NCBI RefSeq assembly: GCF_004382795.1
Contig: NZ_SMSG01000003.1
Span: 496,001 to 560,000 of the forward strand
Direction of reading: 5' to 3'
From: Cumulibacter soli
Lineage (GTDB): Bacteria; Actinomycetota; Actinomycetes; Mycobacteriales; Antricoccaceae
Length of the DNA stretch: 64,000 bases
In this document: positions 11,724 to 48,173 of the stretch, in pieces
How the letters are laid out: each line of letters starts with the position of its first letter
Position numbering within the stretch: position 1 is the stretch's first letter
The notes under the pieces: model-generated
Told to the model about the DNA's origin: nothing
Database searches by the model: none
Seen by the model: only the letters and a program-made list of their open reading frames with translations
Translations under genes and position numbers: made by a program

Positions 11724-11809
11724 GCAGGCAGGGCCGCAGCTACCGGAGTCCTCTGATCAGGTCGGCCTACAGTGCTGTTGCGGCGTCGGCGGGTCGGATG
11801 TGTATCCGC

Positions 11810-12574: not shown

Positions 12575-12745
12575 GTGACCCCCTGTCGCCGACCGCTCAC
12601 TCGGGCACCAACCGCCACATACCGACGCTACTCACCCAGCCGCAGTCTCATCGCACAACTGATTCTCCTTCGACATTAGTTCGACGGGACAGCCGGTGCG
12701 GTGTGCGTTCACATTGAGAAGCGGACCGGCACCTCTACCGGTCTC

Positions 12746-12775
12746 AGTACCTATGGTACTCAATACTTGAAGTAT
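12746..12775. promoter_or_regulatory. Two adjacent palindromes upstream of a TetR gene (candidate operators)
   Basis: AGTACC-TAT-GGTACT (12746-12760) and ATACTT-G-AAGTAT (12763-12775) are perfect inverted repeats with centres 16 bp apart, 14 to 44 bases before the TetR GTG. A third inverted repeat, GACCGG...CCGGTC, lies just before at 12723-12742. Spacing and sequence similarity (TACY..RGTA) suggest binding of two TetR dimers and autoregulation; binding is inferred. Confidence 0.55.
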
Positions 12776-12789
12776 GCTAGGTTCGGCTG

Positions 12790-13410: not shown

Positions 13411-13426
13411 GTCCAGCGAGGTCCCC

Positions 13427-14167
13427 ATGCACGCAGGAATTCTGATCCCTCGGCCATACCGCCTGACGACGTTCATCGGGGTGATCGCCGTCACCTCCTT
13501 AGTCGGCTGCGGATCAGGTGGTGACGAGAAACGCGAATCCACTACGTTCGAGATTCCGAACGACGAAGTGACTATCTCGAAAGGCAGTGGCGATATCTAC
13601 ATCCGACCCGCCAATGTCGATCAACTCGAGGTCACCCGATGGTTCACGGGCAACAGCGACGATGCGATCTGGAAGATGTCGGCAGGCGAGCTCACTCTCG
13701 ATACCGATTGCGGGCCGTTCAGCGCTTGCGATATTCGCTATGAGGTCCGAGTGCCGGAGACGACCACCGTGACCTTATCCGGGGACAACGGTAACGTCAC
13801 CGCGGCTGGATTCAATACACCGTTCGCGGTGTCGACAGACAACGGTTCCATCCAGGTTTCCGACATGTCGGGCGACCTCACACTTAACAGCGCGAATGGC
13901 GATCAAACCGCCACAGGTGTCACCTCCCAGAACGTCACCGCCAACGCTGAAAGCGGCGCGATCGACCTCACGTTCGCCGAAGCGCCGTCCGACGTAGCAA
14001 TCACGACAGAGAATGGGTCGGTGACCCTGACGGTCCCCGATGTCGCCTACTCGGTTTCAACCATTACCGACAGCGGCGACATCGAGGACTCGCTCGCCAA
14101 CGACCCGAAGAGCGCCAAGACGCTCACGGTCTCCACCGAGAGCGGCAGCATCACTCTTTCGACCTAA
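13427..14167 (+). CDS. Secreted lipoprotein with DUF4097-like beta-repeat domain
   Basis: 246 residues from the ATG preceded by GCGAGG. A lipoprotein signal peptide occupies residues 1-27 with lipobox Leu25-Val-Gly-Cys28. The mature part is a repeated beta pattern, each unit bearing Gly-Asn/Ser-Gly turns: SKGSGDIYI, SGDNGNVTAAGF, STDNGSIQVSDM, NSANGDQTATGV, NAESGAIDLTF, TTENGSVTLTV, TDSGDIEDSL, STESGSITLST. This is typical of DUF4097/DUF4098 beta-helix-like proteins, whose function is unknown. Two cysteines in DCGPFSACDI may form a disulfide. Probably co-transcribed with the upstream TetR gene. Confidence 0.85.
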   Translation: MHAGILIPRPYRLTTFIGVIAVTSLVGCGSGGDEKRESTTFEIPNDEVTISKGSGDIYIRPANVDQLEVTRWFTGNSDDAIWKMSAGELTLDTDCGPFSACDIRYEVRVPETTTVTLSGDNGNVTAAGFNTPFAVSTDNGSIQVSDMSGDLTLNSANGDQTATGVTSQNVTANAESGAIDLTFAEAPSDVAITTENGSVTLTVPDVAYSVSTITDSGDIEDSLANDPKSAKTLTVSTESGSITLST

Positions 14168-14181
14168 CTGACAAACCGTGT

Positions 14182-14541
14182 TTCCAAATCGACGCGATCT
14201 ACGCGGACGGGCTCGACGATATCGAGGGCTTCAGCCATCTGATCCTCGTCTATGTCTTCGACCGCAGCACCGAGGTCACGCTACGGCCTGTTCCGCTGCT
14301 GGACGACGCGCCGCATCTTCGCGACCCGAAACCCGCGCAGACCTAATCGACTCGGTCTGACTGTGGTACGGCTATGCAAGTGAGAAGGAAACCTGCTGCA
14401 GGTAGGCGGTCTCGACCTGCTGGACAGCACGCCGATCGTCGATATCAAGCCTATGTGCCGCGGTTCGACGCCTTCCCCGACGCGTCCGAAGGATGGTTTG
14501 CCGGACGCGCCAACCGCCCGAAGCCGCAAGGCCGGGAATAA
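14182..14541 (+). pseudogene. trmO: Decayed tRNA-methyltransferase TrmO (TsaA-domain) remnant
   Basis: Read across three frames, the DNA gives a recognisable TsaA/TrmO sequence: FQIDAIYADGLDDIEGFSHL and ILVYVFDRSTEVTLRPVPLL, then (shifted) IFATRNPRRPNRLGLTVVRL, an in-frame TGA at 14381-14383, EGNLLQVGGLDLLDSTPIVD, then (shifted back near 14450) YVPRFDAFPDASEGWFAGRA and a stop at 14539-14541. Intact TrmO installs the N6-methyl on t6A in tRNA-Thr using SAM. The first ~50 residues are gone. The first lesion is explained by losing five bases between two CAT triplets, the last by one lost C. Confidence 0.8.
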
Positions 14542-14572
14542 CTCGCCACTACCCCAGGCGGTCGCGGACGGA

Positions 14573-15391
14573 TCAGCGACTATCACTCGCCGCCATCGTC
14601 TTACGTCGCCCGATCGGAATCATCAGCGGTCGTTGCGAGACCGGATCGGCAATGATGTGGCTTTCGAGGGCGAAAACTGCGCGCACCGTGTTCTCGGTCA
14701 GCACCTCGCGCGGGTCCCCGGCGGCGTGCACAGTGCCGTCAGCGATCGCGATGAGGTGATCGCAGTAGCGAGCAGCCATATTCAAGTCGTGCAGCACCAT
14801 CACGATGGTCACACCGCGGTCATGATTGAGATCGGTGAGCAGATCCAGCACCTCGACCTGATGCGCGACGTCCAGGAACGTGGTCGGCTCATCGAGCAGC
14901 AGGACGTCGGTTTGCTGAGCGAGCGCCATCGCGATCCACACCCGTTGCCGTTGGCCGCCGGACAACTCATCGACTGGCCGGTCAGCCAGGTGCACAACGC
15001 CAGTCGCATCCAGCGCGGCGGCAACCGCAAGGTCGTCTTCATGCTTCCAACGTGACAATAAACCCTGATGTGGATGGCGACCTCGGGCTACCAGGTCGGA
15101 GACGGTGATTCCTTCAGGCGCGATCGGCGACTGAGGCAGCAGTCCAAGTTGTCGCGCCAACTGCTTCGCCGGAAGTCGATGCACCGCCTTGCCATCGAGC
15201 AGCACCTGCCCGGACGCCGGCGACAGCAGCCGCGACATGGACCGCAGCAATGTCGACTTCCCGCAGGCGTTCGCACCGACGACTGCGGTGATCTTGCCCG
15301 GCGGGATGTGCAGCGTGAGATCGTCGATGACCGTGCGATCGTCGTACTTCAGCGTGAGATCTTCGGCGTTCAGCGTGTGCTCTGCGGTCAT
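14573..15391 (-). CDS. Ferric-siderophore ABC importer, ATP-binding protein
   Basis: 272 residues. Walker A is GANACGKST (about 38-46) with Ala where this family usually has Gly; signature LSGGQRQRVWIAMALAQ; Walker B VLLLDEPTTFLD; switch His in VLHDLNMAARYC. Closest in pattern to FecE/FepC-type ATPases that power vitamin B12 or ferric-siderophore uptake. The ATG overlaps the upstream permease by four bases. Last gene of the binding protein-permease-permease-ATPase operon. It converges on the trmO remnant, so nothing follows in the operon. Confidence 0.93.
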   Translation of the reverse strand: MTAEHTLNAEDLTLKYDDRTVIDDLTLHIPPGKITAVVGANACGKSTLLRSMSRLLSPASGQVLLDGKAVHRLPAKQLARQLGLLPQSPIAPEGITVSDLVARGRHPHQGLLSRWKHEDDLAVAAALDATGVVHLADRPVDELSGGQRQRVWIAMALAQQTDVLLLDEPTTFLDVAHQVEVLDLLTDLNHDRGVTIVMVLHDLNMAARYCDHLIAIADGTVHAAGDPREVLTENTVRAVFALESHIIADPVSQRPLMIPIGRRKTMAASDSR

Positions 15392-16428
15392 AGAGAACCT
15401 CCCGCGCGATAGGTGCGCACAATTAGGTAGATCAAGAAGGGGGCACCGAGGACGCCGGTCACGACGCCCACGGGATAGCGGACGCTCAGCAGGTTCTGTC
15501 CCACGAGATCAGCCGCCAACACCAGCAACGCACCCACGAGCGCGGCCGGGATCAACAGCGACTTACCCGGTCCCACGAGGCGTCCGGCAATCGGTCCGGA
15601 CAAGAACGCGACGAACGCGATCGGCCCGGATCCCGCTGTGGCGAAGGACAGCAACGTGACCGCCACGACGATCACAACCAGCCGCATTCGGCCCACGCGG
15701 ACCCCGAGCGCCTGCGAGGCATCGTCTCCCAACTGCGAGATGAATAGATCCCGAGACTGCGTACATAGCAGCGGAATGAGAACAACCATCGCGATCGCGA
15801 GCGGAACGATCTGGTCCCAGGACGCCCCGTTCAGTGATCCGGTAAGCCACCGCATCGCCTCTTGCAGGTCCCAGTCAGAGGCCTGCGACAGTATGTAAGA
15901 TATGGCGCTCTCGAGCATTGCCGCGACGCCGATGCCAATCAGGATCAGGCGACTGCCGAGAACGCTTCCCTTATACGCCAGGAAATACACCAGCAGTGCG
16001 ACGACTAGGCCACCGACGATGGCCGCAATTCCTACCTGCGACGGACCCCAAGCAAGGACAACGATCGCGAATGCTGCCGCCGCGCTCGCGCCGGCGCTGA
16101 TCCCGATGACATCGGGACTGGCCAGCGGGTTGCGCAGCATCGTCTGGAAGGCAACGCCAGCCATACCGAAGCAGAACCCAGCGAGCATTCCGAGGACAGC
16201 ACGTGGCAAACGCAGACGTCCTACCGAAAACGTGGCACCCTGCACCTGCTCGCCGAGTAACACACGCAGCACCTCGCCGGGCGGATAGAACGTGCGCCCC
16301 ACCATCAGCGAGAGCGCGAACGCGATGACCACCAGCAGCGCCAAGGACCCCACGACGAGCGCCATGCGCCGATTGCGTCGGCGTCGCTCGTCAGCGACGA
16401 TATCGGCGATCTGAACCAGATCGGTCAT
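15388..16428 (-). CDS. Ferric-siderophore ABC importer, FecCD-type permease 2
   Basis: 346 residues, about ten membrane helices after a basic N-terminus (ERRRRNRRMALVVGSLALLV). FecCD family signs: VGRLRLPRAVLGMLAGFCFGMAG, MLRNPLASPDVIGISAGAS, and the C-terminal GPIAFVAFLSGPIAGRLVGPGKSLL coupling region facing the ATPase. Forms a heterodimeric channel with the next upstream gene. Four-base ATGA overlaps at both ends show tight coupling. Confidence 0.93.
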   Translation of the reverse strand: MTDLVQIADIVADERRRRNRRMALVVGSLALLVVIAFALSLMVGRTFYPPGEVLRVLLGEQVQGATFSVGRLRLPRAVLGMLAGFCFGMAGVAFQTMLRNPLASPDVIGISAGASAAAAFAIVVLAWGPSQVGIAAIVGGLVVALLVYFLAYKGSVLGSRLILIGIGVAAMLESAISYILSQASDWDLQEAMRWLTGSLNGASWDQIVPLAIAMVVLIPLLCTQSRDLFISQLGDDASQALGVRVGRMRLVVIVVAVTLLSFATAGSGPIAFVAFLSGPIAGRLVGPGKSLLIPAALVGALLVLAADLVGQNLLSVRYPVGVVTGVLGAPFLIYLIVRTYRAGGSL

Positions 16429-17483
16429 AGGTCGCGAACCCCTTGCCGACGTACGAGATAGATGAACAACGGAGCACCCAGGAAGGCGGTAATGATGCCG
16501 ACATCGATTTCTGCAGGGCGCGCCACCACGCGACCGACGACGTCAGCGGCGGTCAGCAGAATCGCGCCGACGAGCGCGGCGTATGGGATCAGCCATCGAT
16601 GATCGACGCCGACGATGAGTCGACACGCGTGTGGCACTACGAGCCCCACGAATGCGATAGGACCGCAGACCGCTGTCGCCGCACCGCACAAGATGACAGC
16701 TCCGAGCGCGGCCGCGGCACGTGCGCGCGCCACGCGCTCGCCCAGTCCCGCCGCCAGGTCATCGCCAAGCGCAAGCGTGTTCAGACCGCGAGCGGCGAGA
16801 ATGCAGATCGCAAATCCAACGATGAAGAACGGCAGCACTTGTCCGAGGCTGGCGTAGGTCGCTCCCCCGACGCCGCCGATCTGCCAGGATCGAACCCCGC
16901 CTGCGATGTCATTGCGCGGCAGCATGATCGCGACGACGAATGACGACAAGGCAGCGGCGGTAGCCGCCCCGGCCAGTGCCAGTTTCAGCGGAGTCGCGCC
17001 GCCGCGACCGAGTGATCCCACGGCATAGACGAACAGTGCCGCCACAGCAGCACCCAAGATCCCGACCCAGATGAAGCTCGACGCGCTGACCAGTCCGAAG
17101 TATGCGATGCCCGCGACCACCGCGACCGAGGCGCCCATATTGACACCAAGAATGCCGGGATCGGCGAGCGGATTGCGAGTGACTCCCTGCATCACCGTTC
17201 CCGAAACGGCCAGCGCGAGCCCGGCAAGGACGGCCAGTAGGGTCCGCGGGATGCGTTTCGCGACTGCGGCCTGATCAAACCCATCGGTCGAGCCACCGAC
17301 CGCCGCGAACACGTCCTCGAGCGATACCGAACGCGAACCGATCGTCACGGACAGGAACATCACCACCGCGAGGACGGCGAGAATGACCACTAGCCATGAC
17401 ACGCGAGTGCGCCGCGTGCGCCTAATCGCCGCAACACCCGCACTGGAGGTTTCCAGTGCGGGTGTGTGGTCTGTCTGGGTCAC
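16425..17483 (-). CDS. Ferric-siderophore ABC importer, FecCD-type permease 1
   Basis: 352 residues with about ten membrane helices after a cytoplasmic N-terminus containing an Arg-rich patch. Contains KRIPRTLLAVLAGLALAVSGTV, VTRNPLADPGILGVNMGAS and GPIAFVGLVVPHACRLIVG, the FecCD core and coupling motifs. Pairs with the downstream permease. The stop overlaps that gene by four bases and its start overlaps the binding-protein stop by four bases. Confidence 0.94.
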   Translation of the reverse strand: MTQTDHTPALETSSAGVAAIRRTRRTRVSWLVVILAVLAVVMFLSVTIGSRSVSLEDVFAAVGGSTDGFDQAAVAKRIPRTLLAVLAGLALAVSGTVMQGVTRNPLADPGILGVNMGASVAVVAGIAYFGLVSASSFIWVGILGAAVAALFVYAVGSLGRGGATPLKLALAGAATAAALSSFVVAIMLPRNDIAGGVRSWQIGGVGGATYASLGQVLPFFIVGFAICILAARGLNTLALGDDLAAGLGERVARARAAAALGAVILCGAATAVCGPIAFVGLVVPHACRLIVGVDHRWLIPYAALVGAILLTAADVVGRVVARPAEIDVGIITAFLGAPLFIYLVRRQGVRDL

Positions 17484-18562
17484 TGGGACTTATCTGCCGC
17501 TTCCGCCAGGAGCCCGGCGTAATCGTCAAGCACCCAGGAGATCGCCAATGGCGTGGGGTTCGCGGCCGTACCGAGCGGATCGGCATTGGGCAGGCTTACG
17601 ATCGCGCCATTCTGCACGGCCGGGATCTGCGACAACAACGGATCATCGTTGAGCGCGGAGACGATTTCCTCGCCGCCGTACGTCACGATCACGTCGACGT
17701 CGCTGAAGTTGTCGGCTTGCTCGGCACTGATACTCAGCGAGAACTTGTCAGTCTCCTCGGAGGCTACCTGCACGCTTTCCGGCTGAGTCATACCAAGGTC
17801 ATCGAAGAACAAGGCTCGGGTGTCGTGCGTCGTATAGAACGACACCGTGCTCATGTCGGCGGTGTCGACGTGCGTCAAGAACATCGCACTGGTGCCGCTC
17901 AGCGACGGATACTCCGCCGCGGTGTCACTGATCTCCTGTTCCAGTTCGGCTATGAGAGTTTCGCCTTCGTCGGCCATGCCCATGCCTGCACTGTTGAGCT
18001 CGATCATTTCCTGCCATGGCGTTCCCCACGCGGTCTCCGGGAACGCGACGACGGGCGCGATCTCCGAAAGCAGGTCGTAGTCTTCCTGGGTCAGTCCCGA
18101 GTACGCAGCGAGAATGACGTCAGGCTCGGTCTCGTTCACCGCGTCGAAGTCGATGCCGTCGGTTTCGTCGAACAGCACCGGCGTCTCGCCGCCCAACTCG
18201 TCGAGCTTCTCCTCAACCCACGGCAGGATGCCGTCGCCGTTGTCGTCACCGAAGTTCGCTGCCGCCATTCCGACCGGGACGACCCCCAGCGCCAGCGGCA
18301 CTTCATGGTTTGCCCAGTTGACGGTGGCGATCCGCTCGGGCTTCGCTTCGATCACCGTCGTCCCGTACGCATGCTCGATCTCGACCGGCGTGAACCCGTC
18401 CTGTGCGCCGTCTCCGGACGAAGCATCCGAGTCATCGGAGGCACATGCGGTCAGCCCGACCGCGAGCAGCATGACGCTCAACCCCGAGAGGATGCGTGAC
18501 CGACGACTGCGCCGACGAGGACGCGTCGTGCGCCCAGCCGAACGGGTTGATGAAATCTCCAT
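17480..18562 (-). CDS. Iron-siderophore-binding lipoprotein
   Basis: 360 residues from the ATG with GGAAGGG four bases upstream. An Arg-rich N-region precedes a hydrophobic stretch ending in lipobox Leu-Thr-Ala-Cys40; the cysteine is lipidated and the protein tethered outside the membrane. The mature part has the FecB/FhuD-type fold: PERIATVNWANHEVPLALGV, then the second half VDVIVTYGGEEIVSALNDDP. Captures ferric siderophore for the two FecCD permeases. First gene of the operon, with an iron box 28 bases upstream of the start, so expression should rise when iron is scarce. Confidence 0.93.
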   Translation of the reverse strand: MEISSTRSAGRTTRPRRRSRRSRILSGLSVMLLAVGLTACASDDSDASSGDGAQDGFTPVEIEHAYGTTVIEAKPERIATVNWANHEVPLALGVVPVGMAAANFGDDNGDGILPWVEEKLDELGGETPVLFDETDGIDFDAVNETEPDVILAAYSGLTQEDYDLLSEIAPVVAFPETAWGTPWQEMIELNSAGMGMADEGETLIAELEQEISDTAAEYPSLSGTSAMFLTHVDTADMSTVSFYTTHDTRALFFDDLGMTQPESVQVASEETDKFSLSISAEQADNFSDVDVIVTYGGEEIVSALNDDPLLSQIPAVQNGAIVSLPNADPLGTAANPTPLAISWVLDDYAGLLAEAADKSQ

Positions 18563-37302: not shown

Positions 37303-38034
37303 ATGCCTAACGATCCGCGCGCCGATGGCTTCGCTCGCCCGATGCAGATCGACAACGATACCGCCGTCACCCGGTACGCCGAGGGGGATTCGAGTCGTGG
37401 GGTCACGGTCGTCATTCCCCCGCCGAGCATCGTCAACGACGGCCCAGGCCGGCGCGTCGCACACACCGAACCTTCACCACCGCGACCGGCGATGTCCGGG
37501 GGCAGCATTCCCCCGATCGTCCCGGAGACTCCTTACACGCGGACGGTGCAGACAGTTCGCGCACTGTGGCTACTCAGCTTTGCGTTCGGCACGGCCGCCG
37601 CGCTGTTCGCCGCGTTCTCGGCGAAGGGACGCCTCACGGCGCTGCGTGAGTACATCCCGACGCTGCGCAGCGGCTACGACGAGGCCACTATCAGCACGGC
37701 CGCGTCGATCCTGTTCTGGTCAGTCACGGCCATGTGCGTGGCGCTCATTGTCGTGCAGGCGCTCGTGCTCGTTCGACTGCTGCGCGGGCGATTCCGGCCA
37801 CGTTGGTGGCTTCTGGTGCTCGTCGCCGCACAGTGCGTACTGGTAGTGCTGGTGCACCGACTAGTGGCGGTCGATCGAGACGGCCTGCTCATCACCTTAT
37901 TGGCACTCGCGCAACTCACGATCGCACTCATCGCAGCCATCGGGGGCGTCTGCCCCGGAACCAAGAGGTGGCTAGTTACCCGACGCGAGACGGAGGACGC
38001 CGCGCGCAGCGGACGGATGCGCCTCGATCAGTAA
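37303..38034 (+). CDS. Hypothetical membrane protein with four helices
   Basis: 243 residues. A Pro-rich cytoplasmic N-terminal 80 residues (VIPPPSIVNDGPGRR, PSPPRPAMSGG) precedes four hydrophobic segments near 86-106, 134-156, 168-188 and 195-215 (ALWLLSFAFGTAAALFAAF; AASILFWSVTAMCVALIVVQ; WLLVLVAAQCVLVVLVHRLV; LITLLALAQLTIALIAAIGG), then an Arg-rich tail. No family recognised. Its last 63 bp overlap the 3' end of the convergent iniC-like gene, so the two transcripts are complementary there. Confidence 0.72.
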   Translation: MPNDPRADGFARPMQIDNDTAVTRYAEGDSSRGVTVVIPPPSIVNDGPGRRVAHTEPSPPRPAMSGGSIPPIVPETPYTRTVQTVRALWLLSFAFGTAAALFAAFSAKGRLTALREYIPTLRSGYDEATISTAASILFWSVTAMCVALIVVQALVLVRLLRGRFRPRWWLLVLVAAQCVLVVLVHRLVAVDRDGLLITLLALAQLTIALIAAIGGVCPGTKRWLVTRRETEDAARSGRMRLDQ

Positions 38035-39486
38035 TTCCTCCGCGCTGCGGCACACGGTCTCGCTGATGTCTTGCTGCAGGCCGCGCTGTATCTCGGCATT
38101 CGCGGACGCACGCCATCGACGCACGCCATTTCGGGCTTTCTCGGCCAACGCCGCTGCGTCCGCGCCGTCGGGCGTCCGCAGCCGCGCGGCTGCGCTCGTG
38201 CCATAGCCACCCAGCAGCCGTTGCGCCTGTCCCACAGTCTCGGAGTCCCAGTCAATGTCGGGGCTAGAGCCGCTCAGTCTCGCCAGTGACGACAACTCTC
38301 GCAATCCGTGCGCGGCAGTTTCGAGCCGATCCACTTCGCCGAGCAATCGAGAACTCGCTAACACCTCGGGCCGCGCGGCCGCGATACCGGTGACCGCTCG
38401 CCACACCGAACGGGCGCGGAGCAGGTCTGCCCGCTCAACGAAGTGCCGACCGATGGCCGTCTGAAGATCACCAAGCCCGCTTTGTGAAGACAACAGCGGC
38501 GCAAGTTCGGCCACTCGCATCGTGTCGTTGCCCCGAATCATTGACGTGGCTACGCGAATGCCATGTACGCCGAACCGCTCCAGTACGCCCGCGCGCGACT
38601 GCGGCGTACTAGTCAACGTTGATGTCGGGCGCACGAACCGATCACCCGAGACCAGCATTCGGTCGCGTTCTGCGCGATCGAGTTCGGCCAATTCACGGAT
38701 AGTTTGTAGGTCCTCCTCGCGCAGTGTGCGGGCCCCCTGTGCGAGCAGGCCGGCCACCGGGAACACCCCTAGAACTGTGCCAAACAGCGCTGGGTCGCTG
38801 CGTACGCGAGTCGCGATCTCTTGCGCGGTCAACATCGCGTCGATGCGACCGGCGCCCGTTTCATCAGCGCGAGACAGAACGGCAATCGTATTGATCGTCG
38901 CCGCGATCGAGTTATCGCTCGGCGCCAGTTGCTGTAGGAATCGAACATCGGTCTCATGTAGCCGCCGGGTCAGGTATACGACGGCATCGGCTTCCGCTGC
39001 GGCGTCGCTCTGCGCGAGCGCGGTACTGGTCCGCATCGACACTTCCCCGGATAGCGACCCGATTCCGGGTGTGTCCACCAGCGTCATCGTCCGCAGGATC
39101 TCAGCCGGCCATCGAACGAGGATCCGACGCGCCTGCGCTGCATCGCCGAGTGAAAGGTCAAGTTGACCGTCGACAGTGCGTACCGGCAGAGTCACCACGT
39201 CGCCGTTGGCGAGTTCTGCGGTTACTCGAGGTTCGTGCCCGAAACGATAGATCGTCAAGGCGCGGGTACATTCGCCGGCTTCGGCGGGCGCAAGCCGCTC
39301 GCCGAGGATCGCATTGAGCAGGGTCGACTTACCAGCCTTCACCATTCCTGCGAACGCGATCCGTACCGGTTCGGTCAGCCGGTTACGTACCCGATGCAGG
39401 TGAGCCACACAACTTGGTTCATCCGAATAGGAGTCCACAGCGAGCTGAAGTAGGCGGTGTGTCTCGGCGACGATCTCAGCAGCCAT
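37972..39486 (-). CDS. iniC: Dynamin-like GTPase, IniC-like
   Basis: 504 residues. A bacterial dynamin-like protein: P-loop GMVKAGKS (47-54), switch Thr in GECTRALT near 74, G3 DTPGIGS (138-144), G4 LSRADE, followed by a largely helical half. No clear membrane paddle, unlike its partner. M. tuberculosis IniC has about 493 residues, so length agrees. Start: the ATG shares a base with the iniA stop (TGATG) and has GGAGGG seven bases upstream; a GTG one codon earlier is possible. Last gene of the ini-like operon. Tandem dynamin-like proteins usually work as a pair on membranes. Confidence 0.86.
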   Translation of the reverse strand: MAAEIVAETHRLLQLAVDSYSDEPSCVAHLHRVRNRLTEPVRIAFAGMVKAGKSTLLNAILGERLAPAEAGECTRALTIYRFGHEPRVTAELANGDVVTLPVRTVDGQLDLSLGDAAQARRILVRWPAEILRTMTLVDTPGIGSLSGEVSMRTSTALAQSDAAAEADAVVYLTRRLHETDVRFLQQLAPSDNSIAATINTIAVLSRADETGAGRIDAMLTAQEIATRVRSDPALFGTVLGVFPVAGLLAQGARTLREEDLQTIRELAELDRAERDRMLVSGDRFVRPTSTLTSTPQSRAGVLERFGVHGIRVATSMIRGNDTMRVAELAPLLSSQSGLGDLQTAIGRHFVERADLLRARSVWRAVTGIAAARPEVLASSRLLGEVDRLETAAHGLRELSSLARLSGSSPDIDWDSETVGQAQRLLGGYGTSAAARLRTPDGADAAALAEKARNGVRRWRASANAEIQRGLQQDISETVCRSAEELLIEAHPSAARGVLRLASGN

Positions 39487-41321
39487 CACAGTCCCTCCAG
39501 GGCAACCGGTACGGGCACATCACCGCTCGGCCGTACGGCGTCCGCCGCGCGCGCGAGCCAGTCGACTTGCGCCAGCTCCCTGTCGATTTGCTTGATCCTG
39601 TCATCGGAAGCTTCCCGGGCGACTTGCGCTGCTCGCCGCGCGGCGGTGGTCGCGTCCTGAAGGGTGCGGTGGTATTCCTCCGCGATCGCGGTGAAATGAT
39701 CGCGCGTCGCGCGCTGCACTAGTCGGATGCGGTCCTTCAACTGCTTACCGACCTGGAACAGGACGTCATCGATCTGCTTGCGGACAAGCATCTTCGCCTC
39801 GATCTGCCGCCGATTCAATCTGCTGCGCCGATCTTCGACGTAGGCCTTGCCGCCGAGCACGACACCCGCCGCCAGCGAAATCGGATTGATCAGAGATAAG
39901 CCCATCAGTCCCGTCACCAGGCCAACCATCAGGATGCCGGTGTACGAACCGCGCATACTGACGAAAACCTTCTGGAACATCGATAGCCTTCCGGGATCAA
40001 TCTCCGCCATATCTCCGATGGCGCCCAGCACGCCGTCCGTCTCCCCCACCCGCATCTGCGGAATCGCCGATGCGTCGTCCTCAAAGTGCCGATTCACTCG
40101 CTCCGCCAGCCAGGCTGAGCGCTCATTGGTCCAGATAAAGGTGTCGGTGATCGCCGCGGCCACTTCGTTCTCTAACCATTCGGCCATGTCGCGCCACACG
40201 GGTCCGGGGTCACCAGCATCGATGGCCTCTTCGGCGTCCGACTGGACCCGCCGCAGTCGATCACGCAGGTCATAGTCGAGGTCAGCGACTATATCGGCGA
40301 TGCCGTCATTCAACGTGACCTGCCACAGCGACGCGTTCTTGCGTAACTCGGCGGTTCGCTCAAGCGCACTGTCCAGCCCAGCGACGATCTCGGGGGTCGA
40401 GTCGGGATCAGTGAGCGCCTCACGTTCGGTGGTCAGACTCAGGCGTAGTTGGCTGGCCACGATCTGCAAGTCCTGAGCTACTCCCCGCCGCAGCAACTTG
40501 ATTGAGTTGGCTTGTACGTCACTCTTTAAGAAATGGACAAGCGCAGGGAAGCCAGACTCTTGTTCGAGCTCGTTATCGCGCACCCGCCACGCCTCGATGC
40601 GAACGTGAGATGACACCGCGATGATCGGGATCGACTGGAGACCGACGCGATCGAGGTGCTGACGGTTGAGATGCTCGATCGTGCGCCATTGCGGCGATAG
40701 ATCGGTTTTGGTCAGCAGTACAGCGATGTTCGGGCACACCCGCATCGTCGTCCGCAAGAACTGTAGTTCCGGTTCGGTGAATTCCTGAGTGGCGTCGGTC
40801 GTGAATAGCAAAGAGTGAGCGGTGGCGAGCACGCTGAGTGTCGCCAAGGTCGCCACGGAGGTAGTGCCACCCGCACCCGGCGCATCTACCAGCTCCAACC
40901 CATCCTTGAGCAGCGCGCTGGGAAGCGACACCTCGACCCCGGTCAGGCCGAGCCGGTTGCCCGGGTTCCCCCGTTCAGATACGGCGTCCGCGACCGCGCC
41001 CAACTCGAGCGGAGTACGCACCGGCGCATCCTCGGCCGATCGGCGCCCTGGAGGGCTGATAGCAACCGCACCCGGTTGCTCGCCGTACCGCACGGTAGTC
41101 GGAACACTCGTCGCTATGTCGTCATCGATGGGGCACACCGGAGCGCCAACCAGAGCGTTGACCAGCTGGCTCTTTCCTTGCTTGAACTCGCCAACAACCA
41201 TCACGCGTACGGCGCTTTCGCTGAGGCGTATACGTGCGTGCGACAGTCGCTCGACGAAATCAGTGCGCTCGTTGCGTTGCGCGGCGTCGATCCCGCGCAC
41301 GAGTATCTCGTCCAGTTCCAT
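39486..41321 (-). CDS. iniA: Dynamin-like GTPase with membrane segment, IniA-like
   Basis: 611 residues. GTPase domain: P-loop GEFKQGKS (44-51), switch region ATSVPTTVRYG (70-80), G3 DAPGAGG (146-152), G4 LLTKTDLS near 200. After helical neck sequences comes a hydrophobic stretch around 450-485 (TGILMVGLVTGLMGLSLINP, then ISLAAGVVLGGKAYVEDRRS) that fits the lipid-contact loop of IniA. Mycobacterial IniA (about 640 residues) is a GTP-driven membrane-remodelling protein linked to tolerance of cell-wall drugs. Ribosome site AAGG precedes the ATG. A hairpin region separates it from iniB. Confidence 0.88.
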   Translation of the reverse strand: MELDEILVRGIDAAQRNERTDFVERLSHARIRLSESAVRVMVVGEFKQGKSQLVNALVGAPVCPIDDDIATSVPTTVRYGEQPGAVAISPPGRRSAEDAPVRTPLELGAVADAVSERGNPGNRLGLTGVEVSLPSALLKDGLELVDAPGAGGTTSVATLATLSVLATAHSLLFTTDATQEFTEPELQFLRTTMRVCPNIAVLLTKTDLSPQWRTIEHLNRQHLDRVGLQSIPIIAVSSHVRIEAWRVRDNELEQESGFPALVHFLKSDVQANSIKLLRRGVAQDLQIVASQLRLSLTTEREALTDPDSTPEIVAGLDSALERTAELRKNASLWQVTLNDGIADIVADLDYDLRDRLRRVQSDAEEAIDAGDPGPVWRDMAEWLENEVAAAITDTFIWTNERSAWLAERVNRHFEDDASAIPQMRVGETDGVLGAIGDMAEIDPGRLSMFQKVFVSMRGSYTGILMVGLVTGLMGLSLINPISLAAGVVLGGKAYVEDRRSRLNRRQIEAKMLVRKQIDDVLFQVGKQLKDRIRLVQRATRDHFTAIAEEYHRTLQDATTAARRAAQVAREASDDRIKQIDRELAQVDWLARAADAVRPSGDVPVPVALEGL

Positions 41322-41347
41322 GTCGCCTACCTTCGATATCCCCGAAC

Positions 41348-41412
41348 GCCCGGAACGGCGCTTAGGCCGTTCCGGGCAGTCGGTGCATGTGCGACGTCGC
41401 CTAAGGGCGACG
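41348..41412 (-). terminator. Two tandem hairpins between iniB and iniA
   Basis: First, 41395-41412: CGTCGCC-TAAG-GGCGACG, eight bases past the iniB stop. Second, 41348-41377: 12-bp perfect arms (GCCCGGAACGGC and its complement) around a six-base loop. Neither has a U-tract. They may cause partial termination, or mark a processing site that protects iniB mRNA, giving more IniB than the two GTPases. Confidence 0.7.
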
Positions 41413-41419
41413 CGCGTCG

Positions 41420-42892
41420 TTACAGAACCCCGAGATCGAGCTCTGCTTCGTTGTCGTTCAGGTTGTTGCTGAGGACGTCGTTCTCGTTGAAGTTGTCCTC
41501 GATGTTGGTGTTGCCCGTGTTGTTGTCACTGAGCACATCGTTGCCGCTGAGGACATCGTTCCCGCTGAAGTTGTCCTCGATGTTGACGTTGTCGGTGAAG
41601 GAGTCCTCGATGTCGATCGACGAGTCGTTCCCGCTGTTGTTACCGGAATCCTCGATGTCGACCTCGATGTCGTTCCCGCTGCCGTTACCAGAATCCGAGA
41701 TGTCGTTCCCGCTGTTGTTGCCGGAGTCCTCGATGTCGACATCGGTGTTACCGATCTCGCTGTCCTCGATCTCGATCTCAGTGGAGTTGTCGTTCCCACT
41801 GCCGTTACCGGAATCAACGATGTTTCCGTTGCCGTTACCGGAATCCTCGATCTCGATATCGGTGTTGCCCGAATCAACGACGTTTCCGTTTCCGCTGCCG
41901 TTGCCGTTACCCGAGTCCTCGATGTCAACATCGACATCCGTGTTGCCCGAATCAACGACGTTTCCGTTTCCGCTGCCGTTGCCGTTACCGGAATCCTCGA
42001 TCTCGATATCGGTGTTGCCCGAATCAACGACGTTTCCGTTCCCGTTACCCGAGTCATCGACATCAACGATGGTGTTTCCGTTGCCGCTGCCGTTACCGTT
42101 ACCCGAGTCATCGATATCCACCGAGTTGTCGGTGTTACCGATCTGGCTGTCCTCGATCTCGATGTCGTCGATCGACACATTCGTCGAGTTGTCGGTGTTG
42201 GTGCTGCCGACGTTATCCAGCGAGACGTCGCCGACCTCGACGTTCGTCGAGTTGTCGTTGCCCGAATCGGAGATCGTGGTCGTGGTCGTGGTCGACGTCG
42301 ATCCGACATTCGACACGTCGCGGCCGGCCGCAATAGCGCCGTCGCCGGAGGCAACAACCGCGTCATTGTCGAAGAACTGGGTGACCGGGCCATCCGCCCA
42401 GATGTTCTGGTTGACGGACTGGTCGGTGATCGTGTCGCGATCGTCTACGTAGGAGTAGTTGTTCACGATCGTGCGGATCTGTTCGATGACCGACACGTCG
42501 CCGCCGTAGCCGCCACCGTCTCCACCATTGCCGCCGTTACCGCCATTGCCACCATTGCCGCCGTCACCACCGTTACCGCCATTGCCACCGTTACCGCCAT
42601 TGCCACCGGGCACGTAGCCGCCGTTGGCGCCACCGGAGATCACATTGACATCGCCGGAGTTGGTGCTGTTGCCGCCGGTGAAGTAGTTGTTGCCTCCCGC
42701 CGACGGTGCGACGCACACCTGCGGGGCGTCGAGTACGACGGGGATCGCCGACTGGACCTGCGCCGCCGATGCATCCGAGAGGCCGGCGTCGGCTAGTGAT
42801 CCTTCGGGATCAGCGGTGAACTGCTGCGCAGCTGCCGGGTCCTTCAACAGGTTCAGCAAGAACTCGATGAGGGCTGAGGTTGAGAATGCCAT
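41420..42892 (-). CDS. iniB: IniB-like protein: IniB N-terminal domain plus long Asn/Gly/Asp repeat region
   Basis: 490 residues from the ATG with AGGAG six bases upstream. Residues 1-60 match the IniB N-terminal domain (LIEFLLNLLKDPAAAQQFTA, DPEGSLADAGLSDASAAQVQ). Residues 96-131 are Gly-Gly-Asn/Asp triplets, 160-195 a conserved linker (QNIWADGPVTQFFDNDAVV, ASGDGAIAAGRDV), and 205-490 an acidic low-complexity tail of DSGNGN, IEIEDS and NDVLS repeats. No signal peptide or membrane helix. The only cysteine is Cys60. M. tuberculosis IniB is similar in size (about 479) and Gly-rich. Function unknown; upstream of both dynamin-like genes. Confidence 0.85.
   Translation of the reverse strand: MAFSTSALIEFLLNLLKDPAAAQQFTADPEGSLADAGLSDASAAQVQSAIPVVLDAPQVCVAPSAGGNNYFTGGNSTNSGDVNVISGGANGGYVPGGNGGNGGNGGNGGDGGNGGNGGNGGNGGDGGGYGGDVSVIEQIRTIVNNYSYVDDRDTITDQSVNQNIWADGPVTQFFDNDAVVASGDGAIAAGRDVSNVGSTSTTTTTTISDSGNDNSTNVEVGDVSLDNVGSTNTDNSTNVSIDDIEIEDSQIGNTDNSVDIDDSGNGNGSGNGNTIVDVDDSGNGNGNVVDSGNTDIEIEDSGNGNGSGNGNVVDSGNTDVDVDIEDSGNGNGSGNGNVVDSGNTDIEIEDSGNGNGNIVDSGNGSGNDNSTEIEIEDSEIGNTDVDIEDSGNNSGNDISDSGNGSGNDIEVDIEDSGNNSGNDSSIDIEDSFTDNVNIEDNFSGNDVLSGNDVLSDNNTGNTNIEDNFNENDVLSNNLNDNEAELDLGVL
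41813..42031. repeat. Near-identical 60-78 bp tandem repeats in iniB
   Basis: Residues 288-360 are three repeats of the unit VVDSGNT-(D/V-rich acid)-EDSGNGNGSGNGN, of 24, 26 and 20 residues. The DNA repeats are nearly identical, so copy number is prone to change by slippage. Confidence 0.8.
42500..42607. repeat. 9-bp (Gly-Gly-Asn/Asp) codon repeat tract in iniB
   Basis: About twelve consecutive triplets coding Gly-Gly-Asn or Gly-Gly-Asp (residues 96-131). The encoded segment resembles PE_PGRS-type Gly repeats in composition only. Confidence 0.85.
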
Positions 42893-43123
42893 GATCGCTC
42901 CTATAGTCATTCGGCCGCGTCGGCCAAACTGCTTCACCGGTTCCATGCAATCTTTCGGGTGCCCTGTCGCACCACAGCCACGGCTCCGGATTCGGATATC
43001 TACATGCAATCGATTCACTCGCGACAGCGCATCGGGTGCGATCCCGAATCCCGTCGCTGGCCACTAGGGGGTTTTCGCCCCTATATTGGGGATTGCGGCA
43101 TAGCACCAGGTCAGCGGACACTT
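42893..43123 (-). promoter_or_regulatory. Probable iniB promoter region
   Basis: 231 bp between the LuxR-ATPase stop and the iniB start without a gene. Three G or C blocks alternate at 43067-43071 (GGGGG), 43078-43081 (CCCC) and 43088-43091 (GGGG), so two mutually exclusive hairpins are possible. CATGCAATC occurs twice (42944-42952 and 43003-43011). GGGGAT at 43088-43093 resembles a MalT-type half site, which would suit the neighbouring regulator; this is weak. Confidence 0.45.
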
Positions 43124-45823
43124 TTACGCACCGCCATTGATGCCGACGCCACTAAGCAGGGACCGAAGTCGCACCAAAAGTTCACTACGACTTGAAACGT
43201 TGAGCCTGCGTCGTATTCGCGCCATGTGGTGTTCAACAGTTCTCGGCGAAATGAACAGAGTGTTACCGATTTCCGCGTACGTACGACCTTCGAGGACGAG
43301 CGCAGCTACTTCGATTTCCCGCGCGCTAAGTACCGAACGCGCATCCTCGCGAGGATGCACCGGTCCCGGACTCTGCCCCTCACGCACGCTCGGAGATCCG
43401 GGGCCGGCAACGCGCACCGTACGTGCGGACTCCGAAACCGGGTCTGCGCGAACGGCGTGCACCTGGCTCATGTCACGCGCGACATGCAGTAATCGCTGGA
43501 TATCGCCGCGACCGATGGCCTGAGTAGCCGCCAACCCGGCGAACCGTGCGGCGTCCCACTCCATTCCCGCAGCACCCAGCGCACGCGCGTGTTGCTCGGC
43601 CGTCGTCATGGTCGCGCTATCGCGGGCGCCCCCAAGGATCGCGACCCACGACCGTCCTACATCCGCCAGCGCACCCGATAGTCGCACCGCGGCGCCGCCG
43701 CGGACCAACGCGGCCGCATGTGGCTCCAACGCAGTCGGTTGGTTCCTGCGGATTGCGACCTTCACGCATCCCCAATGCAGCAGGGTTCCCCACACCGGCG
43801 GATCGCCTAACCGCTGCAATACCGACAATCCGTCGGCGAGTGAACCTGCGACCGCGTCGTCTTCACGCAGACGCTCGGCCGCAATCACCAGTTCGCCGAG
43901 CGCGAGAATGTCGAACAGTCCGATCGACACTCGCATCAGCGCAGCGCGGGCCCGGGGCCAGGTGCGCCGCAGCGCCGGTGCATCGTCAGCTCGATGAGCT
44001 ATCGCTATCGTGAGGGCCGCCGATAGCAATTCGTCGCGTGCTGCCAACTCACCCGCGGATAAGTCGTTCATTTCGACCGCTGTCAGCACGTCGCCGTCGA
44101 GTAACGCCGCCCACCCTCGCAGTAGTCGCAGCCGGGGCAACAGCTCCGCATTCGGGTGGTGTGCTTCGATCGCCCGGTTGAGCACGGCGATCGCGGTCTC
44201 TCGTTGCCCTGTGTGTATGGCGATCAGCGCGGCCAGCGCGGCTGGCGAATCCGGCAGGAGCGCCGTTGACCCAGTGGCACTTAGGGTCTCGGAAGCGCGC
44301 ACGAGCGACGACAATGATCGCGAGATAGCCACCGAGTCATGCTTTAGTGAGTCGACGATCGCGGTACCCATCGCCTCGATTGCAAGTCTCGCGGGACTCT
44401 GCGGGACCTTATCCACCTCCGACGCCATCAACCGTGTGGGCAACTGTCCGGCGGCCGTCACCGCTACCGCACCGATGCCTCCAAGGCGCGCTGCGCCGTC
44501 CGCGCCCAGAGAGTGAACCGCGTCGGCGGCGCGCTCGGGGTAACCGAGACGCAGCCACAGGGCGGCGTTGATTGCCGCAGCGTCTGGCTGACTGACATGA
44601 GGGATATGGCTGCGATCTCGCTCGAGCAGAGACAGAGCCAGGTCAAGCTGGCTGGTCGCAATCAACGCCTCGACCTGCGGCAACAGTGTCTGTTGCGCTG
44701 GCGCGCCGATGTCGCTGGCCAACGCGAACGCAGCGGCCGCACGTCGCGGATCCGCGCCCAACAAGTTATGCCCCGTCCTGAGTAAAGCCGAGACTACTCG
44801 CGGGTCTTGTACGCCCTGGCGCGCCAGTTCCCAGGCGAGGTCAGCGGTATCGCGCCCGTTGTCCATCCGAGAGCCCAACAACTCGATCCGCGATGCCCGG
44901 CGTCGATGTGCGGGGGCTGTATGCAGAACAGCGGTCCGCACTAGTGGAATGAGGCGTTCGTGCACATCGAGCATGCCCCCGCTACGTAGGTCAGCAAGGT
45001 CATCGTCGTACTGCTTGGCGGTGTAGCCGCCGCTGCGCGGTGAACCCAGATCGACTATGCCCGACCCGATGAGGTCGGACGCATCCGCCCCGGATGCCAG
45101 CGCTAGGGCCAATGCGCGCGGCGAGTCAGCCAGCCTGTCCAATTCAAGCGACAGTCGCGTGATCAACCCGGGGAGCACTGCGGTGCCCGCCAGTGCGCGT
45201 TCGATCTCGCTAACCCCACCTTCGCGGCCATCAGCAAGTTCGGTCAGCACCTCGATGACGACCGACAGAACCCATGGCATCGAACCCGAGGCGATAAGGC
45301 ACCGCTCACGCGCCGCGATTGATAACCACGCACATTGGCCTTCTATCCATTCCCGCGCCTCATTGCTCGACAGCGGACCCAGCGCGACCGGCCTGGTGAC
45401 GGACCCCATCACCGTGCGCAATGCGCGAACCGAATCGGATTGCGAACCGCGTAGGTGTGCCACGAGCAGGTTCGGTCCTTCTTGGTCGCGTGCTAGTTCC
45501 GCCAACCGCCAGATCACCTGCTCATCGGCCAGGTGAACGTCATCCACCACCAGCCACGGTCGCAGCGACTCGCGGCGGATGGGCATCACCTCAGCTGCCA
45601 ACGCCGTCACGTCACGCGCAACGGGAAAGCCCATACCCTCGAACGCCTCGATACAGCGATCCAGCGCCGCGGACTTACCTGAGCCTCGTACCCCGTTCAG
45701 CGCGGTGCAATGCCGGCGATATGGGTCCGCGACAATCGTGTTGATGAAACTCGTGATTTCCGAGCGCTCGACACCTACGCCGGTGCGCTGACGCGCGGTT
45801 CTGGAAAGTTCACCTAGCGTCAT
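43124..45823 (-). CDS. Large ATPase-LuxR regulator (LAL/MalT-like; IniR-like)
   Basis: 899 residues. An N-terminal STAND-type ATPase: P-loop GVRGSGKS (44-51), Walker B LVVDDVHL near 92-95, then DRLADSPRALALALASG. The middle (about 330-800) is a helical repeat array of TPR-like type. The C-terminal LuxR helix-turn-helix is LSAREIEVAALVLEGRTYAE and IGNTLFISPRTVEHHMARI. Mycobacterial IniR, a comparable ATPase-LuxR protein of about 830 residues beside iniBAC, is reported to activate that operon. Here the start overlaps the Hsp70-like stop (ATGA), so the two proteins are made together; this protein probably activates iniB. Ligand unknown. Confidence 0.87.
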   Translation of the reverse strand: MTLGELSRTARQRTGVGVERSEITSFINTIVADPYRRHCTALNGVRGSGKSAALDRCIEAFEGMGFPVARDVTALAAEVMPIRRESLRPWLVVDDVHLADEQVIWRLAELARDQEGPNLLVAHLRGSQSDSVRALRTVMGSVTRPVALGPLSSNEAREWIEGQCAWLSIAARERCLIASGSMPWVLSVVIEVLTELADGREGGVSEIERALAGTAVLPGLITRLSLELDRLADSPRALALALASGADASDLIGSGIVDLGSPRSGGYTAKQYDDDLADLRSGGMLDVHERLIPLVRTAVLHTAPAHRRRASRIELLGSRMDNGRDTADLAWELARQGVQDPRVVSALLRTGHNLLGADPRRAAAAFALASDIGAPAQQTLLPQVEALIATSQLDLALSLLERDRSHIPHVSQPDAAAINAALWLRLGYPERAADAVHSLGADGAARLGGIGAVAVTAAGQLPTRLMASEVDKVPQSPARLAIEAMGTAIVDSLKHDSVAISRSLSSLVRASETLSATGSTALLPDSPAALAALIAIHTGQRETAIAVLNRAIEAHHPNAELLPRLRLLRGWAALLDGDVLTAVEMNDLSAGELAARDELLSAALTIAIAHRADDAPALRRTWPRARAALMRVSIGLFDILALGELVIAAERLREDDAVAGSLADGLSVLQRLGDPPVWGTLLHWGCVKVAIRRNQPTALEPHAAALVRGGAAVRLSGALADVGRSWVAILGGARDSATMTTAEQHARALGAAGMEWDAARFAGLAATQAIGRGDIQRLLHVARDMSQVHAVRADPVSESARTVRVAGPGSPSVREGQSPGPVHPREDARSVLSAREIEVAALVLEGRTYAEIGNTLFISPRTVEHHMARIRRRLNVSSRSELLVRLRSLLSGVGINGGA

Positions 45824-46881
45824 AACGATGCCCTCACCGAATGAATCGCCGCCAGTGGTGTGATCGGACGTGGACGCGCGATAAACCGGAGTGGTTCTAC
45901 AGCGCCCCGCACCGGCTCGGTGCCGCGCGCCGACCTCACCCATCGGGGTTCGCGGGACGTCAATTGCAGCAACGCGGTGCTTGGCTGCCCGGTAGTGGCC
46001 GAGGCAGCAGCGCCGATACTCCCAGCATACTGCGGATCGACCTGCATCAACACTGGCGCTGCGCGCAGTTGGGCAAGATAATCGACGATGCTCGGCATCC
46101 GCGACAAGCCCCCGGCAAGAATCACCGCACACTCCCCAGGGCTGGAGATACCGGCAGCGACGAACGCCCGATCAATGAGCCCCTGAAGCTGCGACAGCAT
46201 CTGATCGGAGGGCCCGTCAGTTTCCGCTGGCCACGTGAACGATGTGGCGCCCGGATAAGCGCAGATTTGCGACTGACCCAGCTCAGCAAGTGAGTCGTCC
46301 GCTCGACGTTGCACGAGCGTCACACTCATCGTGTGGCGGCCGAGGTCGCACACCGCAACAGGAATATTCGACGGAAGCGTGCCATCGCCGCCGTAGCTGG
46401 CGGCAACGGCGATGGGTGACGAGATGGCGCGGATTCCGACAAGACCTCGCTCCGCCAAGGCCGCCAGCGTCGCTGTAATTCGCCAAGGCCGCCAGTTGGG
46501 TGGGTGTACGAGGCTAATGCGTTGCGGCTCGGAGCCTCGTTCCGCTCGCGCGTGCACTGTCACGGCCTCAACGACGGCAGCGCACAACTGAGCTGCGGTG
46601 ATCTGGTGATTCCCAAGGATGTATGGGGTGGAGTCCCCGACCCGCGCAATGAAACCGCGTGCACAGTTTTGCGGTTCGCGCCGGGCCAACTCAGTCGCTT
46701 CTGCTCCGACAACGAGCTCGTCCCCTGCGATGCCCGCCACTGCGCGCATCGCAGGGCCAGAGGCCTCGAGGCAAATTGTCGTAGCTCGCACCGCACCGTC
46801 TTCGAGCCGCTCCGCAGAAGCCGCTTTTACCTGCGTGCCGCCAATGTCGACACCCAACGCATACGGTCTACTCAGAGTCAC
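45820..46881 (-). CDS. Hsp70-like actin-fold ATPase without substrate-binding domain
   Basis: 353 residues from a GTG with GGGAGGA seven bases upstream (ATG at 46929 is possible but lacks a ribosome site). The actin/Hsp70 nucleotide site is complete: phosphate-1 GVDIGGTQVKAA near residue 9, phosphate-2 VAVCDLGRHTMSVTLV, and adenosine motif VILAGGLSRMPSIVDYL. QRISLVHPPNWRPWRI and SSPIAVAASYGG are typical of actinobacterial Hsp70-like proteins. It ends shortly after the ATPase domain in an Arg/Pro-rich tail (EPLRFIARPRPITPLAAI), so it lacks the peptide-binding part of DnaK. Overlap with the regulator suggests it controls that protein rather than folding clients. Confidence 0.85.
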   Translation of the reverse strand: MTLSRPYALGVDIGGTQVKAASAERLEDGAVRATTICLEASGPAMRAVAGIAGDELVVGAEATELARREPQNCARGFIARVGDSTPYILGNHQITAAQLCAAVVEAVTVHARAERGSEPQRISLVHPPNWRPWRITATLAALAERGLVGIRAISSPIAVAASYGGDGTLPSNIPVAVCDLGRHTMSVTLVQRRADDSLAELGQSQICAYPGATSFTWPAETDGPSDQMLSQLQGLIDRAFVAAGISSPGECAVILAGGLSRMPSIVDYLAQLRAAPVLMQVDPQYAGSIGAAASATTGQPSTALLQLTSREPRWVRSARGTEPVRGAVEPLRFIARPRPITPLAAIHSVRASL

Positions 46882-47153: not shown

Positions 47154-48173
47154 CTAGCCCGCGCTGCCTCCACCGGCGAGTTCGGCGCTTAGCGCGTGCC
47201 AGCGCGCAGCCGCGCCCGCTCGATTGGGCACATCCAGCGCCTCGAGGATGTTTTCCAGATGCTTTCGTACCGTTCCTTCAGCGATCCCCAACTCGCGGGC
47301 GATTTCGGCATTGCGTCGACCACCGGCCACCAACTGCAAGACGTCGAGTTGGCGTCCGGTGAGCGCTGCTAGATCAGCGGGAGCGGACGTCGTTCGCCGC
47401 ATTCCGATCAATTCGCCCTGCGATGTCGCCATCACGCTGCGACTGATCCAATCCTCGTCATCGATTCGGCATCGCCGCACCGGCGGCAGACCCACGCTGC
47501 CTTCGGCACGCCGAACACTGCTCGGCAACCGTAGCCCCTCGCGCAGAGTGCCGCTCGGATCTGGCGGCGCGACCTGTATGACGCGGTCCGCGCCATCGAT
47601 GGTCACTGCGAACCAGCCGCCGATCGCCCCCGAACGCATTTCACCCGGCTCGGGGGCGCCGCCGCAGCCGAGCGCAAGGGCGGGTAGCAGCGCATTACAC
47701 ACCGCGACATCGCGTTCGGTGAAATCTTCCCCTGAGCGCATCAGCGAGATCAGATTCAGGAATCGGTCCCCGGACGGGACGGGTACCAGCATCTCCCAGT
47801 CAACGCCCAGCGGGATGAAGTACTCGCGGTACAGTTGACTGGCGTACCACTCATCTGGCCCCACTCGGTCGGAGACCCGCATCACCGATAGTTCACCCGC
47901 ACCGGCATAGAACGCGACCACCGGGTGTTGGTTACGGAGTCGGTCGAGTACCGGTTTTATCGCGCCGACCCGGTCGCTCCAATCAAGCGGATACACGACG
48001 AAATCGCGCTTTCCCGCCGCAATATCCATCCGGTGAAATTGAACCAAATCTGCCCCGACGAGTTCGTGCAACACCTGCAGCGCGTCAATCCTGAAATTCG
48101 GGCCCGGAGGCCAGATTCGAGAAGTGGCGGCAAGAATACGCGTAGCGTCATCGGGCGAAATCGTCGAGATCAC
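47154..48173 (-). CDS. LuxR-family transcriptional regulator
   Basis: 339 residues. The C-terminal helix-turn-helix is clear: LTGRQLDVLQLVAGGRRNAE, IARELGIAEGTVRKHLENIL. The N-terminal 230 residues look like a GAF/PAS-like sensor (DRVGPDEWYASQLYREYFIP, VDWEMLVPVPSGDRFLNLIS and RSGEDFTERDVAVCNALLPA), the arrangement of one-component LuxR regulators. Ligand unknown. It lies 272 bp before the Hsp70-like start in the same direction and may control that operon. Confidence 0.88.
   Translation of the reverse strand: MISTISPDDATRILAATSRIWPPGPNFRIDALQVLHELVGADLVQFHRMDIAAGKRDFVVYPLDWSDRVGAIKPVLDRLRNQHPVVAFYAGAGELSVMRVSDRVGPDEWYASQLYREYFIPLGVDWEMLVPVPSGDRFLNLISLMRSGEDFTERDVAVCNALLPALALGCGGAPEPGEMRSGAIGGWFAVTIDGADRVIQVAPPDPSGTLREGLRLPSSVRRAEGSVGLPPVRRCRIDDEDWISRSVMATSQGELIGMRRTTSAPADLAALTGRQLDVLQLVAGGRRNAEIARELGIAEGTVRKHLENILEALDVPNRAGAAARWHALSAELAGGGSAG

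Follow-up and report, generated by a model that had tools for sequence, protein, structure and literature searches.

A conserved Hsp70-like gene beside iniR in iniBAC-type loci of Actinomycetota: a candidate gate for the regulator IniR

We analyzed a stretch of 64,000 nucleotides from the genome of Cumulibacter soli (GCF_004382795.1, contig NZ_SMSG01000003.1, positions 496,001-560,000 of the forward strand; hereafter, the window), in which five co-directional genes on the minus strand (46881-37972) encode an Hsp70-like protein, a homologue of the regulator IniR, IniB, and the dynamin-like GTPases IniA and IniC. The iniBAC genes are known as a mycobacterial operon strongly induced by cell-wall drugs. 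The locus described here is a variant of this known system with an overlooked conserved component, the Hsp70-like gene, which is tightly coupled to iniR, codes in most cases for a membrane-anchored protein, and occurs in most of the mycobacteria sampled, making it a candidate for the sensor through which IniR would detect damage. We tentatively propose an IniR-controlled envelope-stress system made of two units, in which the Hsp70-like protein would be a dedicated gate or tether of IniR.

The Hsp70-like gene is conserved at iniR loci

Loci were collected with IniA as a bait, and the samples were thus not selected for the Hsp70-like gene. They comprise the 80 closest IniA loci of a scan of named genomes (mostly Arthrobacter, Pseudarthrobacter, Agromyces, Microbacterium, Georgenia, and relatives), and a class-wide sample of 394 genomes, from which 48 strong IniA loci were examined. 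In the named-genome scan, 69 loci were informative on what lies 5' of iniR, and all of them have an Hsp70-like gene; the order of the window, Hsp70-iniR-iniB-iniA-iniC, is reproduced exactly in 55 of the 80 loci. The class-wide sample gives a similar picture, as 38 of the 48 loci carry iniR and all 38 carry an Hsp70-like gene, which lies directly upstream of iniR and on the same strand in 30 of them. The two genes are also closely spaced: in 98 of 100 adjacent pairs, iniR starts between -10 and +25 nucleotides from the Hsp70 stop, and in the window its ATG overlaps this stop by four nucleotides (ATGA). A preliminary description of the window, made from the sequence alone, had left open whether the Hsp70-like gene would be only rarely found next to ATPase-LuxR and ini genes; both samples show that the linkage is kept. 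Because there are few Hsp70-like genes per genome in this order (up to about a dozen), we estimate that a few per cent of the loci would have an Hsp70-like neighbor within 10 kb by chance. The loci of the samples are related to one another, but cover several families.

Most of the sampled mycobacteria have an Hsp70-like gene beside iniR, the pair being mostly divergent from iniB*-iniB-iniA-iniC. Five extra Hsp70 matches by mycobacterial iniC (loci L160, L161, L173, L179, and L185) fall with genuine DnaK in the tree and were left out of account; none of the iniR loci rests on them. Further Hsp70-like paralogues, with a membrane helix, a Thr-rich tail and lost catalytic residues, were observed just downstream of iniR or beyond iniC in several mycobacteria (L142, L146, L161-L164, L168-L170, and L172).

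A dnaK-like gene next to iniR was mentioned for Mycobacterium smegmatis only (Boot et al., 2017; PMC5760070), and nothing else on this Hsp70-like gene was found in the open-access literature searched (iniBAC with Hsp70, dynamin with GrpE). The putative sensing half of the system, which the preliminary description did not recognize as described, is thus partly known, being composed of an IniR homologue and of a neighbor already noted in M. smegmatis in 2017. Like the mycobacterial IniR-iniBAC system (Rv0339c and Rv0341-Rv0343; PMC5760070), the locus of the window has an IniR homologue, the IniB N-terminal domain, the IniA and IniC dynamins, and a predicted site directly 5' of iniB, but here all genes are co-directional, an Hsp70-like gene precedes iniR, and neither a small iniB* nor EmbABC was found.

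A predicted operator precedes iniB only

The gaps between iniR and iniB of 56 non-redundant loci (window excluded) share a motif, GTAGGGGG-(6-7)-CCCGATGCC, and served to train a matrix; the consensus of this conserved site 5' of iniB is GGGG-N6-CCC(C)GAT. The top matrix site of the whole window, considering both strands, lies in its iniR-iniB gap (Table 1), the runner-up reaching 12.5 bits. Among named-genome loci, a site of at least 17 bits was found upstream of iniB in 82%, a figure that is partly circular, as the matrix was trained on iniB regions. No such site precedes the Hsp70-like gene, iniR, iniA, or iniC in any of these loci, and these zeros are free of that circularity. Beyond Micrococcales, in loci that include those of mycobacteria, 73% of the regions upstream of iniB or iniB* score above the 95th percentile of shuffles, and the site takes the form GGGG-N6-CCCCG(A/T)T, followed about 20 nucleotides further by a TAnCGT-like box. 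The core pattern GGG-N6-CCCGATGC occurs more than once, with seven sites in the genome versus three for the reversed control. We found no published operator motif for IniR in the open-access literature searched, and propose the GGGG-N6-CCC(C)GAT site as a putative binding site of IniR. Chromatin immunoprecipitation sequencing in M. tuberculosis places IniR immediately 5' of iniBAC, and IniR suffices for induction (PMC5760070).

As the predicted operator precedes iniB only, and as the start of iniR is tightly coupled to the Hsp70 stop, the Hsp70-like gene seems to be part of the control unit, in agreement with the control module first proposed. The genes probably form two transcription units, with Hsp70-iniR as the control and iniBAC as the controlled unit. 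From the five-gene envelope-stress system of the preliminary description we thus retain the iniBAC identity and the conserved Hsp70-like/regulator pair, but not the single unit: a transcript spanning all five genes was set aside, since the operator-like site in the 231-bp iniR-iniB gap is specific to iniB and argues for two. No convincing -10 box was seen by eye for the iniB promoter of the window, and a scan for consensus promoters and terminators gave results at or below chance.

A second putative regulatory element lies within the response unit. The 98-nucleotide gap between iniB and iniA holds a strong hairpin (-55.0 kcal/mol for the fold of the gap; z -3.7 in the window), and similar hairpins of differing sequences are found at this position in many relatives, including mycobacteria (median z -3.0 over 88 loci). 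Perhaps this hairpin sets the IniB:IniA ratio, and an IniB excess reported on the basis of RNA sequencing (PMC5760070) may be due to it. Together, the predicted operator and the hairpin make the regulation of the system directly testable.

A predicted membrane-anchored Hsp70-like protein, reduced in C. soli

In relatives, the Hsp70-like protein has three parts: a nucleotide-binding domain of Hsp70 type (∼370 residues), a single membrane helix, and a long tail rich in Pro, Ser, Thr, and Glu. The helix follows the domain in 121 of 131 proteins, and in 116 of these 121, Lys and Arg are more abundant before than after it, which predicts that the domain is inside and the tail outside the cell. The median tail length is 206 residues, and P, S, T, and E make up 52% of the tail. 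The proteins share the fold of the nucleotide-binding domain with the DnaK/Hsp70 chaperones, from which they differ in that a membrane helix and tail mostly replace the substrate-binding domain, absent from every copy examined. The residues K70, E171, and T199 (DnaK numbering) are retained in most non-mycobacterial copies; in mycobacterial ones, K70 is replaced (mostly by V), and D and G predominate at the positions of E171 and T199, respectively.

The copy of the window is further reduced. It has neither membrane helix nor tail, stops right after the nucleotide-binding domain, and lacks the region of lobe IIB within it (model positions 215-297 are missing); the equivalents of K70, E171, and T199 are I, S, and T. 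It does retain the glycine motifs of the adenosine site, and its predicted fold has DnaK structures as best matches (E 1.5e-18), the confidence score (pLDDT) being mostly above 90 as far as residue 200. The Hsp70-like ATPase without substrate domain of the preliminary description therefore has the fold and the missing domain that were claimed, but the label "ATPase" is doubtful for this copy, because the catalytic Lys and Glu and lobe IIB are lost too. From its sequence, we regard the protein as a reduced and probably non-hydrolysing form. Reduced forms akin to it were found in L040, L044, and L149 (L040 lacking a similar region), and several families have such forms in an intact state, still coupled to iniR. 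In the tree, the window copy is the longest branch, with 2.54 changes per column, and its placement is unsure; a single clade of ini-type Hsp70, which we had considered, is not given by this tree.

A putative gate for IniR and its alternatives

In the system that we propose, the Hsp70-like gene and iniR would constitute the control unit, and iniB-iniA-iniC the response unit. In most relatives, the actin-fold domain would reside in the cytoplasm and be connected by the membrane helix to the tail outside, and IniR would be held at the membrane. Upon envelope damage, the Hsp70-like protein would release IniR, resembling the restraint of MalT by MalK, and IniR on the GGGG-N6-CCC(C)GAT site 5' of iniB would then activate iniB along with the genes of the dynamins IniA and IniC, a pair that would work on the cytoplasmic membrane. 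In the lineage of the window, with anchor, tail, and catalytic residues gone, a soluble remnant would be left, able to act only by binding. The genes, their conserved linkage, the domain architecture, the lost residues, and the conservation of the site are observed; the binding of IniR to this site, the contact between the Hsp70-like protein and IniR, the direction of control, and the membrane topology are inferred. We count in favor of the gate that the linkage of the Hsp70-like gene was kept in mycobacteria and in the window despite the loss of catalytic residues. Several observations weigh on the other side: the window copy has no membrane helix, Hsp70-like genes accompany dynamin pairs without iniR too, the gene lies within the locus yet does not adjoin iniR in five to eight loci, and IniR works in M. 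tuberculosis, whose described locus has no Hsp70-like gene.

In Escherichia coli, the STAND/LuxR activator MalT is restrained by the membrane-bound ATPase MalK. The ini system resembles this pair in combining a STAND/LuxR activator with a candidate membrane-associated nucleotide-binding partner, but the partner has an Hsp70/actin fold and is not an ABC ATPase, there is no transporter in the ini locus, and the contact is presumed. This comparison draws also on the discussion in PMC5760070. A bolder version, to which we give less credence, is that IniR-iniBAC would ancestrally be a five-component envelope sensor of Actinomycetota, with the membrane-anchored Hsp70-like protein and its outside tail as the missing sensor and as the gate of IniR at GGGG-N6-CCCCGAT sites, and that the tuberculosis version (as described) and the pseudo-Hsp70 of the window would represent separate reductions.

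The chief rival to a gate for IniR is a partnership with the dynamins. The Hsp70-like protein would assemble or dismantle IniA/IniC complexes at the membrane, and adjoin iniR since the whole cluster travels together. We regard this as rather unlikely, even though the same genome carries a second operon encoding a membrane Hsp70-like protein, a dynamin, a GrpE-like protein, and a dynamin, with no iniR or iniB (Table 1). Such Hsp70-GrpE-dynamin clusters recur in several families (GrpE-like genes in L035-L037, L046-L049, L051, L052, L201, and L202), catalytic residues being intact in eight of eight of their Hsp70-like proteins, and the ini-type loci L186, L187, and L189 combine an Hsp70-like gene with iniA and iniC, and no iniR. 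In ini loci, however, the Hsp70-like gene is coupled to iniR, stands outside the operator-bearing unit and is often divergent from iniBAC; a GrpE-like gene was not found in these loci, save true grpE by dnaK; and in the window, the protein has lost lobe IIB as well as catalytic residues. On the tree, the Hsp70-like proteins of the second-operon type group in a clade of their own (support 100/100). The association of Hsp70-like proteins with dynamin pairs is thus more widespread, and those of ini type have become attached to iniR. No description of the second operon was found in the open-access literature searched. DO-GTPase-GAP1-N2 conflict systems (Kaur et al., 2020; PMC7159879) also contain GTPases, sometimes paired, with HSP70, GrpE, and an actinobacterial Hsp70 without peptide-binding domain, but these GTPases belong to another TRAFAC family and occur together with GAP1 and FNIII proteins, and the study makes no mention of dynamins, IniR, or IniB. 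As to IniR-like regulators near clusters of the second-operon type, only large ATPase-LuxR-like proteins, very distant from IniR, were found in three genomes (L046, 748-3330, minus strand; L049, 16946-19378, plus strand; L051, 15606-18491, minus strand).

Two other explanations for the Hsp70-like gene are improbable. It could be, in the window, a decaying relic that persists as a 5' lead-in for the translation of iniR, which would account for the loss of lobe IIB, helix, tail, and catalytic residues, for the long tree branch, and for the similar reduced forms in the three loci cited above. Yet the reading frame is uninterrupted, the protein core is modelled at high confidence and keeps the glycine motifs of the adenosine site, and the reduced forms of several families are themselves intact and iniR-coupled. 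Hardly easier to sustain is a role as a folding or maturation partner that would keep the large STAND protein IniR soluble, with no envelope signal involved, as chaperones do for eukaryotic NLR proteins. The tight coupling of the two genes, the Hsp70 fold, and the STAND-like nature of IniR, with its long helical repeats, are compatible with it, but no copy examined has a substrate-binding domain, most have a membrane helix and an outside tail, and the ATPase residues are lost in mycobacteria and in the window.

Phage defence through membrane remodelling, also raised in the preliminary description, was rejected as very improbable: Bacillus DynA, a bacterial dynamin, can hinder phage lysis (PMC8844932), and IniA and IniC have weak PADLOC matches to LeoA and LeoBC, but neither the Hsp70-like protein nor IniB is hit by any defence model, IniR is matched in its helix-turn-helix region only, gene content and order are conserved within families, and the known biology of IniR is a response to drugs and trehalose (PMC5760070). 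LeoABC and DynA are likewise dynamin-like GTPases, commonly paired, but their similarity is weak, and the available parts of the sources report no Hsp70-like or IniR partner.

Inducing signal

As the EmbABC family was not found in this genome, ethambutol does not seem to be a natural cue here; we discarded a response to it as the natural function, and a drug response through EmbABC is unlikely in C. soli. OtsA is present in the genome, and trehalose is a possible cue. The closest relatives of the window IniA belong to Arthrobacter and Microbacteriaceae, showing that the system is not tied to mycolic-acid envelopes.

Gene identities and neighboring features

The arrangement of the five genes was found as first described, including their strand and coordinates, the four-nucleotide overlap, and the length of the regulator (Table 1). 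The latter displays a STAND-type ATPase, helical repeats, and a C-terminal LuxR domain, and its predicted structure has as best PDB match a STAND protein with TPR repeats. Its best NCBIfam match is IniR, over nearly the whole model, with a score below the equivalog cut-off of 750 bits; judged by these matches, it is an IniR homologue, not a proven IniR. The IniB-, IniA-, and IniC-like identities hold as well. The N-terminal domain of IniB exceeds the curated cut-off and is the sole copy in the genome, and residues 14-583 of IniA match the solved structure of M. smegmatis IniA (6j72, E 1.7e-121). Both dynamins pass the curated Dynamin_N cut-off of 27 bits (IniA 63.6, IniC 57.5), and the iniC product reaches 595 bits with an IniC-type profile (built with this protein included). 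The iniC gene adjoins iniA, with an overlap of four nucleotides.

Table 1. Features of the ini locus and of the second dynamin operon in C. soli (positions in the window unless indicated)
Feature	Position	Strand	Description
Hsp70-like gene	45820..46881	-	353 aa; GTG start 46881, alternative GTG 46929; PF00012 E 5e-9
iniR homologue	43124..45823	-	899 aa; NF038181 E 3.9e-92, 310 bits; GerE
Predicted IniR operator (GATTCGGGATCGCACCCGATGCGCTG), 5' of iniB	43025..43050	-	Matrix score 17.0 bits
iniB	41420..42892	-	490 aa; NF038175 70.7 bits (cut-off 40); start and ribosome-binding context
iniB-iniA intercistronic hairpin	41347..41378	-	13-bp stem, 6-nt loop
iniA	39486..41321	-	611 aa, dynamin-like GTPase; Dynamin_N E 3e-17
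iniC	37972..39489	-	505 aa, dynamin-like GTPase; Dynamin_N E 2.3e-15
Second operon	Contig 1, about 716-724 kb; L034 (G000:C1:706001-726000) 10303-17813	+	Hsp70-like protein with C-terminal membrane helix, dynamin, GrpE-like (PF01025 E 6e-9), dynamin

Past its N-terminal domain (41420-42750), IniB does not resemble a globular protein, being made up of Gly/Asn-rich and then Asp/Asn/Ser-rich low-complexity repeats (DSGNGNGSGNGN-like). We also found a gene for a LuxR-type regulator of 339 aa (47154-48173), which immediately precedes the Hsp70-like gene on the same strand.

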